Translations under genes and position numbers: made by a program
Source: Halosimplex rubrum
GTDB lineage: Archaea > Halobacteriota > Halobacteria > Halobacteriales > Haloarculaceae
Direction: 5' to 3'
Length of the DNA stretch: 64,000 bases
Assembly: GCF_013415885.1 (NCBI RefSeq)
Contig: NZ_CP058910.1
Location: 2,542,001-2,606,000 of the forward strand
Shown here: positions 1,062 through 20,726 of the stretch, in pieces
Layout of the letters: each line of letters opens with the position of its first letter
How positions within the stretch are numbered: position 1 is the stretch's first letter
Notes under the pieces: generated by a model
Database searches by the model: none
What the model saw: the letters and a program-made list of their open reading frames with translations, nothing else
What the model was told of the DNA's origin: nothing

Positions 1062-1742
1062 ATGACGGGGCCAGTGGCGGCCGTTCTCTTCGACCTGGAC
1101 GACACCATCTGTACGTACGAGCGCAGCGCCGACGACATCCTGGCGATCGCCTTCGACCGCGTCGGCGTCGACCCCTTCTTCGACGGCGCCGAGTACGTCG
1201 ACCGACTGGGCGAGTTCTCCGACGCCGGCGACGACATCCGCGACACCCGTCGCGCGGCGTTCGGCACCTTCGCCGCCGAGGCGGGCCACGGCGAGGCCGT
1301 CGGCGAGGAGATCGCCGACATCTACACCGACGAGCGCGACCAGGCCAACGTCCGCTTCCTCGACGGCGCCGAGCGCGCGCTGGACGCGATGACCGACGCC
1401 TACCGGGTCGGCATGGTCACCAACGGCGACCCGTGGATGCAGTCCCAGAAGCTCGCCGGCCTCGGCATCGAGGACCGCTTCGAGGTGGTCGTCCACGGCG
1501 GCCACGACGCGCCGTACAAGCCCGACCCGGAACCGTTCCACCTCGCGCTCGACGAACTCGGGGTCGCCGCCGACCGTACCGTCCACGTCGGCAACTCCCA
1601 CGCCTCGGACGTGACCGGTGCCCACGCCGCGGGCCTGCGCTCCGTCTGGCTCGCCGACGGCGACCCGCCGTTCGACCACAACCCCGAACCGCACCACGTC
1701 GTCGAGTCGCTCCACGACCTCGTTGAGGAGCCCTGGGACTGA
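1062..1742 (+). CDS. HAD family hydrolase
   Basis: 226-aa cytosolic HAD-superfamily hydrolase. Motif I is VLFDLDDT with the nucleophile and general acid at D11 and D13; motif II is the VTNGD segment; motif III includes the KPDPEPF lysine; motif IV is HVGNSHASD. A helical cap lies between motifs I and II (about residues 20-95), as in the phosphoglycolate phosphatase/haloacid dehalogenase-like class. It is probably a small-molecule phosphatase, but the substrate cannot be read from sequence. It stands alone, and its start is preceded by a short T-rich promoter-like tract. Confidence 0.88.
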   Translation: MTGPVAAVLFDLDDTICTYERSADDILAIAFDRVGVDPFFDGAEYVDRLGEFSDAGDDIRDTRRAAFGTFAAEAGHGEAVGEEIADIYTDERDQANVRFLDGAERALDAMTDAYRVGMVTNGDPWMQSQKLAGLGIEDRFEVVVHGGHDAPYKPDPEPFHLALDELGVAADRTVHVGNSHASDVTGAHAAGLRSVWLADGDPPFDHNPEPHHVVESLHDLVEEPWD

Positions 1743-18463: not shown

Positions 18464-19207
18464 ATGGAAACGACAGTACGCGACCTGAACGGCGACGACG
18501 ACGGGAGCGTCGAGCTCCCCGGCGTCTTCGAGACGGACCTCCGGCCGGACCTGATCCGGCAGGCCGTCCACGCCGCGCAGGCCAACCGGAAGCAGGACTA
18601 CGGAGCCGACGACTACGCCGGGATGCGCACGCCCGCCGAGTCCCAGGGGAGCGGCCGCGGTATGGCCCACGTCCCCCGGGAGAACGGTCAGGGGGCACGC
18701 GTTCCCCAGACCGTCGGCGGTCGCCGTGCGCACCCGCCGAAAGCGGAGAAAGACCGCGGGCTCGACATCAACACGAAAGAGAAGAAGCTCGCCGTCCGCT
18801 CGGCCGTCGCGGCCACGACGGACGCGGAAGTCGTCGCCGAGCGCGGCCACGACTTCGACGACGACGCGGAGCTCCCGCTCGTCGTCTCCGACGACTTCGA
18901 GGACCTCGTGAAGACCCGGGAGGTCGTCGACCTCCTGGAAGCGCTCGGCGTCGACGCCGACATCGAGCGCGCCGACGAGGCGACCGTGCGGGCCGGCCGC
19001 GGGACGACCCGCGGGCGCAAGTACAACCGCGCGAAGTCGATCCTCTTCGTGACGAGCGAGGAGCCCTCGACGGCCGCTCGCAACCTCGCGGGCGCGGACG
19101 TGACGACCGCACGCGAGGTCAACGCCGAAGACCTGGCGCCCGGCGGCGACGCCGGCCGCCTGACGGTCTGGACCGAATCCGCCGTCGCGGAGGTGGCCGA
19201 GCGATGA
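18464..19207 (+). CDS. rpl4: 50S ribosomal protein uL4
   Basis: 247-aa protein lining the exit tunnel. The Arg/Gly-rich extended loop (about residues 45-90, with RENGQGARVPQTVGGRRAHP) and the C-terminal alpha/beta domain match archaeal uL4. In bacteria L4 also autoregulates the S10 operon; no such role is shown here. Its stop TGA overlaps the ATG of the 21-codon mini-ORF that precedes rpl23. Confidence 0.97.
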   Translation: METTVRDLNGDDDGSVELPGVFETDLRPDLIRQAVHAAQANRKQDYGADDYAGMRTPAESQGSGRGMAHVPRENGQGARVPQTVGGRRAHPPKAEKDRGLDINTKEKKLAVRSAVAATTDAEVVAERGHDFDDDAELPLVVSDDFEDLVKTREVVDLLEALGVDADIERADEATVRAGRGTTRGRKYNRAKSILFVTSEEPSTAARNLAGADVTTAREVNAEDLAPGGDAGRLTVWTESAVAEVAER

Positions 19208-19269
19208 ACACCGTCGCACGCGGAGCGCGCGACGAGCTCATCGTTCTCACCGGAGGTGAGAGCCGATGA
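19204..19269 (+). CDS. 21-codon coupled mini-ORF between rpl4 and rpl23 (copy 1)
   Basis: ATG 19204 overlaps the rpl4 stop and TGA 19267-19269 overlaps the rpl23 ATG, so the frame is coupled at both ends. The peptide starts MNTVARGARDELIVL and matches the mini-ORF before rps19 at 12 of 21 positions. The RNA folds into two hairpins: 19212-19234 (10 positions, one A-C mismatch) and 19246-19260 (CTCACC-gga-GGTGAG), the second hiding the rpl23 Shine-Dalgarno. Whether the peptide is made is unproven; it may simply hold the ribosome path open through a structured spacer. Confidence 0.55.
   Translation: MNTVARGARDELIVLTGGESR
19212..19260 (+). promoter_or_regulatory. Two tandem hairpins before rpl23
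   Basis: Hairpin A is CGTCGCACGC-gga-GCGCGCGACG (19212-19234). Hairpin B is CTCACC-gga-GGTGAG (19246-19260), which contains the GGAGGTGA ribosome-binding site of rpl23. The same pair occurs before rps19 with a compensatory G-C to A-T change in stem A, supporting RNA structure. Confidence 0.65.
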
Positions 19270-19520
19270 ACTCGGTCATCAAGTACCCGAACATGACGGA
19301 GAAGGCGATGGACGACCTGGACTTCCAGAACAAGCTCCAGTTCGTCGTCGCCGGCGACGCGACCAAGCCGGAGATCGCCGAGGCGGTCTCCGAGCAGTTC
19401 GACGTCACCGTCGTGAACGTGACGACGCAGGTCCAGCCCGACGGCGAGAAGAAGGCGTACGTCGAGCTCTCGGAAGACGACGAGGCCGAGGACGTGGCCT
19501 CACGGATCGGGGTGTTCTAA
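19266..19520 (+). CDS. rpl23: 50S ribosomal protein uL23
   Basis: 84-aa protein at the tunnel exit, where it docks SRP and the SecY channel. The start MNSVIKYPNMTEKAMDDLDF and the QFDVTVVNVTTQVQPDGEKK loop are typical. Its Shine-Dalgarno (GGAGGTGA, 19252-19259) lies inside the second hairpin of the upstream mini-ORF element, so its translation is probably controlled by readthrough of the coupled frame. Confidence 0.96.
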   Translation: MNSVIKYPNMTEKAMDDLDFQNKLQFVVAGDATKPEIAEAVSEQFDVTVVNVTTQVQPDGEKKAYVELSEDDEAEDVASRIGVF

Positions 19521-19522
19521 CA

Positions 19523-20242
19523 ATGGGACGACGAATCCAGGGGCAGCGACGCGGGCGCGGGACCTCCACGTTCCGGGCGCCGTCGCACCGCTACAAGGCC
19601 GAACTGTCGCACCGGACGGTCGAGGACGGCGACGTGGTCGACGGGACGGTCGTGGACATCGAACACGACCCGGCCCGCTCGGCGCCCGTCGCGGCCATCG
19701 AGTTCGAGGACGGCGACCAGCGCCTCGTCCTCGCCCCCGAGGGCGTGGGCGTCGGCGACCGCATCCAGGTCGGCGTCAGCGCGGAGATCGCCCCCGGGAA
19801 CACGCTCCCGCTCGCGGAGATCCCGGAAGGGATCCAGGTGTGCAACGTCGAGGCCAACCCCGGCGACGGCGGGAAGTTCGCCCGCGCGTCGGGCGTCAAC
19901 GCCCAGCTGCTCACCCACGACCGCAACGTCGCGGTCGTCACGCTCCCGTCGGGGGAGACCAAGCGGCTCGACCCCGACTGCCGCGCGACGATCGGCGTGG
20001 TGGCCGGCGGTGGCCGCACGGAGAAGCCGTTCGTCAAGGCAGGCAACAAGCACCACAAGATGAAATCGCGAGGGTCCAAGTACCCGACAGTTCGTGGTGT
20101 CGCGATGAACGCGGTCGACCACCCCTTCGGTGGGGGCGGTCGACAGCACCCCGGCAAGCCCAAGTCCGTCTCGCGGGACGCCCCGCCGGGTCGGAAGGTG
20201 GGCGACATCTCCTCGCGCCGCACCGGCCGAGGTGGTAACTGA
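19523..20242 (+). CDS. rpl2: 50S ribosomal protein uL2
   Basis: 239-aa protein needed for subunit association and peptidyl transferase activity. N-terminus MGRRIQGQRRGRGTSTFRAP; the conserved C-terminal loop GVAMNAVDHPFGGGGRQHPG includes the key His. ATG 19523 follows rpl23 by two bases. The stop TGA (20240-20242) overlaps the ATG of the second 21-codon mini-ORF. Confidence 0.97.
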   Translation: MGRRIQGQRRGRGTSTFRAPSHRYKAELSHRTVEDGDVVDGTVVDIEHDPARSAPVAAIEFEDGDQRLVLAPEGVGVGDRIQVGVSAEIAPGNTLPLAEIPEGIQVCNVEANPGDGGKFARASGVNAQLLTHDRNVAVVTLPSGETKRLDPDCRATIGVVAGGGRTEKPFVKAGNKHHKMKSRGSKYPTVRGVAMNAVDHPFGGGGRQHPGKPKSVSRDAPPGRKVGDISSRRTGRGGN

Positions 20243-20307
20243 TGAGTTCCGTCACACGCTTCGCGCGTGACGACCTCATTAGTCTCACCAGAGGTGAGAA
20301 CGAATGA
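20242..20307 (+). CDS. 21-codon coupled mini-ORF between rpl2 and rps19 (copy 2)
   Basis: ATG 20242 overlaps the rpl2 stop (TGATG) and TGA 20305-20307 overlaps the rps19 ATG. The peptide begins [15 protein letters not shown] and shares V-x-R-x-ARD-x-LI-x-LT-x-GE with copy 1, at the same length and phase. The first eight bases (atgagttc) also copy the start region of rps19 itself, as copy 1 (atgaac) does for rpl23. This suggests an ancestral duplication of translation start regions or a mobile repeat that inserts at start codons. Confidence 0.55.
20250..20298 (+). promoter_or_regulatory. Two tandem hairpins before rps19
   Basis: Stem A is CGTCACACGC-ttc-GCGCGTGACG (20250-20272), with the same single A-C mismatch as copy 1 and an A-T pair where copy 1 has G-C. 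Stem B is CTCACC-aga-GGTGAG, which buries the rps19 Shine-Dalgarno just before ATG 20304. Confidence 0.65.
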
Positions 20308-20726
20308 GTTCGGAATACCAGATCGGCCACGAAGGTGAGTTCACCTACCGTGGTCACACGCTCGACGAGCTGCAGGACATGAGCCTGGAGGACGTCGCGG
20401 AACTGCTGCCCGCTCGACAGCGGCGAAGTATCACGCGCGGCCTCTCCGTGGAGAAGGAGAAGCTGCTCGACGAGGCCCGCGAGGCCGGCGAAGAGGAGAC
20501 CGCCAACGACCCCATCCGCACGCACCTGCGCGACATGCCGATCGTGCCGGAGATGGTCGGGATCACCTTCGCCGTCTACACCGGGCAGAGCTTCGAGCGA
20601 GTGAAGGTCGAGCCGGAGATGCTCGGTCACTACCTCGGCGAGTTCCAGCTGACACGGACCTCCGTCGAGCACGGCCAGGCCGGCATCGGGGCCACGCGCT
20701 CCTCGAAGTTCGTACCGCTCAAATAA
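20304..20726 (+). CDS. rps19: 30S ribosomal protein uS19
   Basis: 140-aa small-subunit head protein. The [20 protein letters not shown] strand and the [11 protein letters not shown] segment near the C-terminus are diagnostic. An archaeal N-terminal extension (about 45 residues) precedes the bacterial-length core. Start ATG 20304 overlaps the mini-ORF stop. Confidence 0.97.

Follow-up and report, generated by a model that had tools for sequence, protein, structure and literature searches.

Mycobacterial interspersed repetitive units (MIRUs) are described, in the part of the account cited here, as short, repetitive and apparently mobile sequences that insert at start codons, carry an internal open reading frame (ORF) coupled with a spacing of -4 nucleotides (nt), and are proposed to insert with minimal effect on expression (PMC12548453). 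The man-made bicistronic design (BCD) stands at the start of an expression cassette and has a short first cistron, the translation of which is thought, according to the cited portion of the source, to melt the structure of the second ribosome-binding site (PMC6302717). Rickettsia palindromic elements (RPEs), considered here with the protein-coding miniature inverted-repeat transposable elements (MITEs), are small, structured and dispersed, and RPE frames are read by ribosomes (cited section of PMC2229807). In haloarchaea, native gene pairs are coupled by termination-reinitiation at ATGA junctions, often with an intragenic Shine-Dalgarno sequence and often between subunit genes (in the excerpts used of PMC6728339 and PMC10666635). 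The present analysis concerns an element of commonly 66 nt that occurs twice in the ribosomal protein operon of Halosimplex rubrum, within a 64,000-nt stretch of DNA (assembly GCF_013415885.1, contig NZ_CP058910.1, positions 2,542,001 to 2,606,000 of the forward strand), termed the window below. It is best read as a putative archaeal counterpart of the MIRUs: a short element, likely to have been mobile over evolutionary time, that occupies the stop/start junctions of coupled genes and would rebuild the junction that it splits.

Like the MIRUs, the haloarchaeal element consists of dispersed short repeats, each with an ORF that overlaps the adjoining stop and start codons, and comparison with empty sites places its insertion at start codons. 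It differs in coming from another domain of life, in its common size and in having two covarying hairpins, one of which hides the downstream Shine-Dalgarno sequence and start codon. MIRUs are larger than 66 nt, and we know of no hairpin structure of this kind in them. In contrast to the BCD, the element is natural, dispersed and found in mid-operon. RPEs lie in intergenic DNA or are fused in frame within protein genes, and they have terminal inverted repeats, as far as the cited section goes (PMC2229807). The haloarchaeal element, on the other hand, was found between genes in all 41 of its strong matches and not inside protein genes. Of the hallmarks of MITEs it shows the target site duplication, of about 7 nt and on indirect evidence; a terminal inverted repeat was not found, the ends of the consensus core matching at 5 of 14 positions against a shuffled mean of 5.7. 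Compared with native ATGA coupling, finally, the element doubles the junction by means of an inserted mini-ORF with a sequestering hairpin of its own.

Two copies in the ribosomal protein operon

Copy 1 (19204-19269; all window features given here are on the plus strand) lies between rpl4 (50S ribosomal protein L4; 18464-19207; TIGR03672, 344.6 bits against a cut-off of 269.75) and rpl23 (50S ribosomal protein L23; 19266-19520; NF011118 and TIGR03636). Copy 2 (20242-20307) lies between rpl2 (50S ribosomal protein L2; 19523-20242; NF007180) and rps19 (30S ribosomal protein S19; 20304-20726; NF003121 and TIGR01025); the identities of all four flanking genes were confirmed by NCBIfam. Each copy is a 66-nt mini-ORF of 21 codons (model E values of 1.8e-18 and 5.7e-20) that shifts the downstream start by 62 nt. 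At the left end of copy 1, the rpl4 TGA (19205-19207) overlaps the mini-ORF ATG (19204-19206) as ATGA, and at the right end the mini-ORF TGA overlaps the rpl23 ATG at 19266. In copy 2, the rpl2 TGA (20240-20242) overlaps the mini-ORF ATG at 20242 as TGATG, and the mini-ORF TGA overlaps the rps19 ATG at 20304. The peptide MNTVARGARDELIVLTGGESR and that of the other copy are identical at 12 of 21 residues. Between the two copies, stem A of the RNA structure shows the compensatory change G13-C27 to A13-T27 and has the mismatch A15.C25 in both. The two frames with their overlaps, the identity of the peptides and the changes in stem A had all been noted in a preliminary description of the locus, and each was reproduced.

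A family dispersed through the Halobacteriales

The element before rpl23 and rps19 is a member of a family dispersed through the Halobacteriales. The likeness of the two copies is not a matter of chance: in the genome of H. rubrum itself, a DNA search with copy 1 returned a third copy at trpB-trpA (E 4.4e-6), 66 nt long and in frame. The same search with copy 2 as query gave no copy beyond itself. A pattern for the second hairpin, with up to 3 mismatches, recovered copies 1 and 2 and the one at trpB-trpA, and its reversed control matched once. A fourth copy of 87 nt (G000:C1:2123128-2123214), detected with the second of the two covariance models used, precedes a NuoC-like gene, a 200-residue fragment of which scored 105.4 bits, below the cut-off of 122.45.

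The first covariance model (R1) was built from 16 aligned copies, taken from relatives and named loci, and was run on 392 genomes of the order. It had matches in 89 of these genomes at E<=0.05 and gave 41 strong matches (E<1e-8) in 35 of them. The second model, built from 48 copies, matched 39 of the 146 genomes searched in the family (E<=0.001). At this same threshold, a sample of 392 genomes from across the phylum gave matches in 14, all of them within the window's order, the share of the sample from outside that order not being given. A covariance-model search of haloarchaeal genomes had been proposed in the preliminary description, and the element was indeed found at the start codons of other, unrelated genes; it is thus not specific to ribosomal proteins.

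A total of 62 copies was examined, consisting of the 41 strong matches, 14 weaker ones that passed the upstream test and 7 found outside the model search. Classified by motif, their sites were etfA (19 copies), rpl23 (15), rps19 (12), trpA (3), an aminotransferase of the argD/lysJ type (2), metE (2) and others (9). Pfam matches at representative junctions, made on the first 200 residues or fewer, included ETF, Trp_syntA, Aminotran_3, Meth_synt_2 and CoA_binding with Ligase_CoA, as well as Aconitase, Aconitase_C, OB_ChsH2_C, ABC2_membrane_2 and MoeA_N. The gene names argD, leuC, leuD and sucD, and those of the upstream genes trpB and etfB, are our own assignments. A copy is also present at etfB-etfA on plasmid pAArc1-02 of Natrarchaeobaculum sulfurireducens; the plasmid record annotates these two genes, and its incomplete gene table lists none for the mini-ORF.

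No match was obtained in Rfam for positions 19000-20500 of the window or in Pfam and NCBIfam for three mini-ORF peptides. A search of viral contigs with an exact pattern likewise gave no match, which is weak evidence since only exact matches could be found. No earlier description of the element in haloarchaea was found in the open-access literature, judged mostly on titles and the openings of abstracts.

Variants of the element were also encountered. In one genome (G114; L194, near 1501-1628, minus strand), two tandem, diverged 66-nt copies with a common ATGA stand before a metE-type gene. A longer subfamily of 84-90 nt (L282, L283, L277, L193 and others) carries extra GC-rich, partly palindromic sequence around stem A and is in frame. 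A 59-nt hairpin match that may or may not belong to the family was seen just 5' of the gene MSKRNSNADRFRKQA... in four genomes (L188, L190, L197 and L200), at which the script found no open upstream frame.

Position at stop/start junctions and reading frame

All 41 strong matches are located exactly at the stop/start junction of two genes, in frame, the requirement being open frames of 60 codons or more on both sides, the upstream one stopping where the element starts and the downstream one starting where it ends. Both covariance models include the ATGA ends, which somewhat favours such junctions; the approximately 58 other model positions presumably carry most of the score. Among the 25 weak R1 matches (1e-8 to 1e-3), 14 were at junctions and 11 failed the automatic test. 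The latter comprise the second of the G114 tandem copies, two longer in-frame forms before an aconitase C-terminal-domain gene, which we take to be leuD, and eight matches away from such junctions that were treated as unrelated or unresolved. Only a few of the R1 matches between 1e-3 and 0.05 were looked at. The preliminary description had stated that random copies unrelated to start codons would speak against it: there are none among the strong matches, and some of the weak ones do lie elsewhere.

In the 62 copies, the upstream stop is at offset +1 in 57, -2 in four and -3 in one, and the right end is ATGA in 52 and GTGA in 8, with 2 reading on to GTGA. The mini-ORF is 66 nt long in 53 of the 62, the other lengths being 63 (three copies), 69, 84, 87 and 114; two copies cut by the model at 59 nt extend to 114-nt frames that end in GTGA. 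The frame is kept in all 62, and all nine versions of other lengths are multiples of three. Two copies end one codon early, yet still overlap the start codon as TGATG or TAATG. In all 53 copies of 66 nt, the start-to-start distance is 62 nt, rather than 66, because the frame includes the ATGA overlap at both ends.

The frame of the mini-ORF is thus kept while its peptide drifts. In 112 same-site pairs, which overlap and are not independent, differences in the unpaired columns of the extended RNA structure numbered 137, 211 and 164 at codon positions 1, 2 and 3 (3, 6 and 5 columns, respectively), with no third-position excess and no sign of selection on the peptide. An earlier column set, in which columns 39, 40, 61 and 62 were treated as unpaired, had given a like outcome, with 208, 239 and 204 differences over 6, 7 and 7 columns. 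A count of RTGA in the window with a home-made gene finder, covering 54% of it because its last 24 kb differ in composition, gave 7 at junctions against 496 in sequence called non-coding, an order of magnitude to which no weight is attached.

A repeated target and empty sites in relatives

The bases around the left and right start codons were compared in the 60 copies whose right end contains TGA. The base after ATGA (+5) was identical on the two sides in 51 of the 60 (shuffle mean 26.2, maximum 38), the first base preceding ATGA in 33 (mean 19.8, maximum 30) and the second base before it in 39 (mean 22.5, maximum 36). With one copy retained per site and genus, agreement at +5 was 39 of 46 (mean 20.8, maximum 33, in 20,000 shuffles). 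No other tested offset exceeded its shuffle maximum; offset -2 was about 2 standard deviations up (31 versus 26.0), and offset -8 equalled the maximum (22). These shuffle figures are not probabilities, since the copies are related. Together they point, indirectly, to a repeat of about 7 nt, NNRTGAN at offsets -1 to +5, which is the pattern that a target duplication would leave. By these family-wide identities, the repeat would lie at 19202-19208 and 19264-19270 in copy 1 and at 20240-20246 and 20302-20308 in copy 2, the right-hand members including the start codons of rpl23 and rps19, respectively.

The corresponding junctions are mostly empty in relatives. Among the best 80 of 531 loci found in a search with L2, rpl4-rpl23 was filled in 2 (Haloarcula LUM.49 and, as a 60-nt variant, an uncultured genome) and without the element in 78; rpl2-rps19 was filled in 3 and without it in 77. 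An overlap or a gap of a few nucleotides stands in its place, and among the same 80 loci both junctions are empty in three named Halosimplex species, the closest by L2 identity. The Shine-Dalgarno-like sequence GGAGGTGG at the end of rpl4 (19189-19196), which now stands 5' of the mini-ORF of copy 1, is also seen at many of the empty junctions. At trpB-trpA (22 loci read of 23 tried, from 30 fetched), the element is present in G000 and G001 and absent from the remaining six (G002-G007) of the eight genomes of the window's genus. At etfB-etfA (19 loci read of 21, from 30 fetched), 4 of 19 are filled and 15 are empty, the latter including two genomes (G072 and G110) congeneric with filled ones. 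A further relative (G012, L215) has extra sequence near the end of trpB, relative to the others, with a perfect hairpin (CGTGGGGCGAAGCCCCACG).

RNA structure

The structure was evaluated on 48 of the 53 copies of 66 nt, leaving out a G002 copy identical to copy 1 and four weak copies (two from G092 and one each from G067 and G114; E 3.5e-5 to 8.7e-4). Stem A (columns 9-18 with 22-31; 19212-19234 in copy 1 and 20250-20272 in copy 2) has both-side changes at 9 of its 10 pairs, and its pair 15/25, the site of the recurrent A.C mismatch, is unpaired in 38 of the 48 copies. Stem B (columns 42-48 with 52-58; 19245-19261 and 20283-20299) contains the Shine-Dalgarno sequence GGAGGTGA in copy 1 (19252-19259) and the Shine-Dalgarno-like AGAGGTGA in copy 2 (20290-20297). 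It is lengthened by an internal 7-mer, columns 34-40, that pairs with columns 61-67; the 7-mer is at 19237-19243 in copy 1, where the fold pairs it with 19264-19270, and at 20275-20281 in copy 2. The extended second hairpin therefore encloses the downstream start codon as well as the Shine-Dalgarno sequence. The claim of two hairpins, the second burying the Shine-Dalgarno, was accordingly right as to stem B, and the hairpin turned out to be longer than described. Conservation of stems and frames in relatives, the lack of which would have counted against the preliminary description, was likewise found.

The whole structure has 24 pairs and is 87.7% paired. Both-side changes number 119; shuffles average 33.1, and slid controls reach no more than 32. 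RNAalifold on the 48 copies found part of the 34-40/61-67 extension unprompted, and on the first 16 copies chose a helix with the mini-ORF's own start instead. That helix, columns 1-5 with 34-38, had been the first choice for a third helix and was set aside once more copies showed the downstream start to be the better match at the base preceding ATGA and at GTG starts. In the 24 copies in which the left and right bases before ATGA differ, the 7-mer pairs with the right in 19 and with the left in 2; one base further out, in 19 such copies, the counts are 10 and 6. In three copies with ATG on the left and GTG on the right it pairs with the right, and all four 66-nt copies with a GTG start have the compensating C at column 38. 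Both partners, the left and the right start, are possible, and the right fits better except at +5. As 81-nt folds, copies 1 and 2 have z-scores of -3.64 and -4.25, with none of 200 dinucleotide shuffles as stable in either case. The long hairpin is formed wholly or largely in the minimum-energy folds of 5 of 6 junctions (z -1.48 to -4.25).

Proposed mechanism and its implications

Insertion would duplicate the NNRTGAN target and so leave the upstream stop and the downstream start intact. The insert would supply an open frame from ATG to ATG together with a Shine-Dalgarno sequence for the downstream start, and in the mRNA stem B and the internal 7-mer would hide both that sequence and the start codon. 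A ribosome arriving from the upstream gene could then re-initiate on the mini-ORF, melt the hairpin, terminate and re-initiate on the downstream gene, a step that would be open only to a ribosome that comes by way of the mini-ORF. Because no other ribosome would reach the downstream start, the element probably keeps strict serial coupling with little harm and would let ribosomes pass from gene to gene within an operon as before. That the mini-ORF is translated, and with what effect, is inferred. In the cited portion of a study of Haloferax volcanii, coupling was strict in 9 of 9 gene pairs, and the Shine-Dalgarno sequence did not drive de novo initiation (PMC6728339). According to the cited part of a second study, a spacing of about 20 nt nearly abolishes coupling, and overlapping gene pairs are enriched in subunit genes (PMC10666635). 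In view of that effect of spacing, a 62-nt insertion that lacked an open frame would presumably break the coupling to the downstream gene.

Such an element would indicate that mobile elements hidden at translational junctions are not confined to mycobacteria but arose or spread in archaea too, the archaeal form being small and its RNA structure readable from covariation. With two serial re-initiations between genes, it would provide a natural test of termination-reinitiation, given that in the cited portion of the H. volcanii work the Shine-Dalgarno sequence did not drive de novo initiation (PMC6728339). The products of the separated genes are often partners, as in tryptophan synthase, electron transfer flavoprotein and the ribosome, and related species pairs with and without the element would allow its cost or benefit to be measured directly. 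The element also accounts for mini-ORFs inside core operons that annotation may miss.

Weighing of the explanations

The preliminary description had offered either a leader that couples translation or a mobile repeat that inserts at start codons. The placement of all 41 strong matches at junctions, the unrelated nature of these junctions, the empty sites and a downstream start that is both re-supplied and sequestered suggest that the element is both at once. Several points weigh against this reading. The open frame by itself is weak evidence, as another frame has stops in only 6 of 60 copies. Further pair types in the structure (36, versus 33.6 shuffled) are not above expectation, 99 of 500 shuffles being as high. 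One of the six folded junctions, with the z-score of -1.48, is hardly beyond its shuffles. The left helix alone is 91.3% paired, the minimum-energy fold of copy 2 pairs the 7-mer with the left start and not the downstream one, and at +5 the 7-mer pairs with the right in 3 and the left in 5 of the 9 copies in which the sides differ. The trpA copies of G000 and G001 lack left/right identity, and such identity could partly come from common constraints on start regions. In H. volcanii, re-initiation proceeds without an essential Shine-Dalgarno sequence, and the effect of the latter varies by gene pair (in the passages cited, PMC6728339). In a tree of 53 copies, the site labels need 19 changes, as against a shuffled mean of 29.8 and a least possible number of 6, which suggests a mixed history, with some copies inherited or recombined within a site and others moved between sites. 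For this reason, and with 28 of 49 inner branches of the tree drawn open and 11 starred as supported, it is uncertain how many independent moves took place. Neither a transposition event nor a mobilising enzyme or autonomous relative was seen, and the ends of the two resident copies of a Y1 transposase element are unrelated to it.

Several other explanations fare less well on the same data. A leader that serves only to regulate ribosomal proteins, through an autoregulatory or attenuation structure to which L4, L23, L2 or S19 binds, would suit the presence of two copies in one ribosomal operon. The mismatch that recurs in the conserved stem A might likewise be read by a protein. The element, however, also precedes trpA, etfA, aminotransferase, aconitase-family, CoA ligase, MoeA and other genes, and of the best 80 of 531 loci 78 lack it at rpl4-rpl23 and 77 at rpl2-rps19. 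On account of the copies at unrelated genes, a leader specific to ribosomal proteins was rejected; the idea is strongly disfavoured and highly improbable. Very little probability is likewise given to the reading of the mini-ORFs as genes for a family of functional microproteins (about 20-37 residues) placed between the genes of operons, in spite of an always open frame and a recurring motif: the motif follows largely from the hairpins, three of the peptides match neither Pfam nor NCBIfam, and the codon-position counts in the unpaired columns, without third-position excess, led to the rejection of a conserved microprotein. An old coupling device that never moved, present at a few junctions of a haloarchaeal ancestor, repeatedly lost through deletion between direct repeats and exchanged by homologous recombination only at the same junction, agrees with the share of the rpl23, rps19 and etfA junctions (46 of the 62 copies examined) and with the clustering of site labels on the tree, and flanking direct repeats would make precise loss possible. 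It is nevertheless rather unlikely in view of some 12 or more junctions, counting weaker matches, several of them in only one or two sampled genera, of the G114 tandem copies with their common ATGA, and of left/right identity at bases that vary between sites.

The remaining alternative departs from the preferred reading, a mobile element that rebuilds a coupled junction, in how the target is chosen. Here a single-strand (HUH/Y1) or guide-directed element would use the 7-mer to recognise NNRTGAN, with an enzyme acting in trans to insert it at ATGA. This is unlikely, although there is some evidence in its favour: no terminal inverted repeat was found, hairpins lie near both ends, and the 7-mer directly precedes the right hairpin and pairs with the sequence that directly follows it. 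The 7-mer moreover fits the left flank in 32 of 53 copies at -1 (shuffle maximum 28) and in 39 of 53 at +5 (equal to the shuffle maximum). In the 24 copies in which the two sides differ at offset 0, however, it pairs with the right in 19 and with the left in 2, as expected under selection on RNA structure; no guide is seen beside the left hairpin, and the Y1 elements of the H. rubrum genome have other ends. In IS200/IS605 elements, guide sequences by the subterminal hairpins pair with the cleavage site or target, and insertion is not known to produce a target duplication. The left/right identity hence speaks against insertion of that type, unless it was produced by guided target choice. A doubtful extension is that the 7-mer might be a re-targetable guide, which picks an NNRTGAN overlap, inserts with target duplication and then locks the downstream start in the mRNA; if so, one short sequence would both select the site and make the insertion safe for expression.

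Other observations in the genome and the window

The two Y1-transposase copies of the H. rubrum genome (L293 and L294; G000:C1, at about 107.6 and 2014.4 kb) share 1841 identical bases, and their ends contain CCCCGCGCTGAAGCGCGAGG; an origin of the element from Y1/IS605 was rejected on account of these unrelated ends. In the second part of the window (40001-64000), the G+C content falls from about 0.66-0.72 to about 0.49-0.50 and stays so to the window's end. ORFs of up to 1065 codons occur in this region, which has the look of a large island or an integrated element beside the core region.

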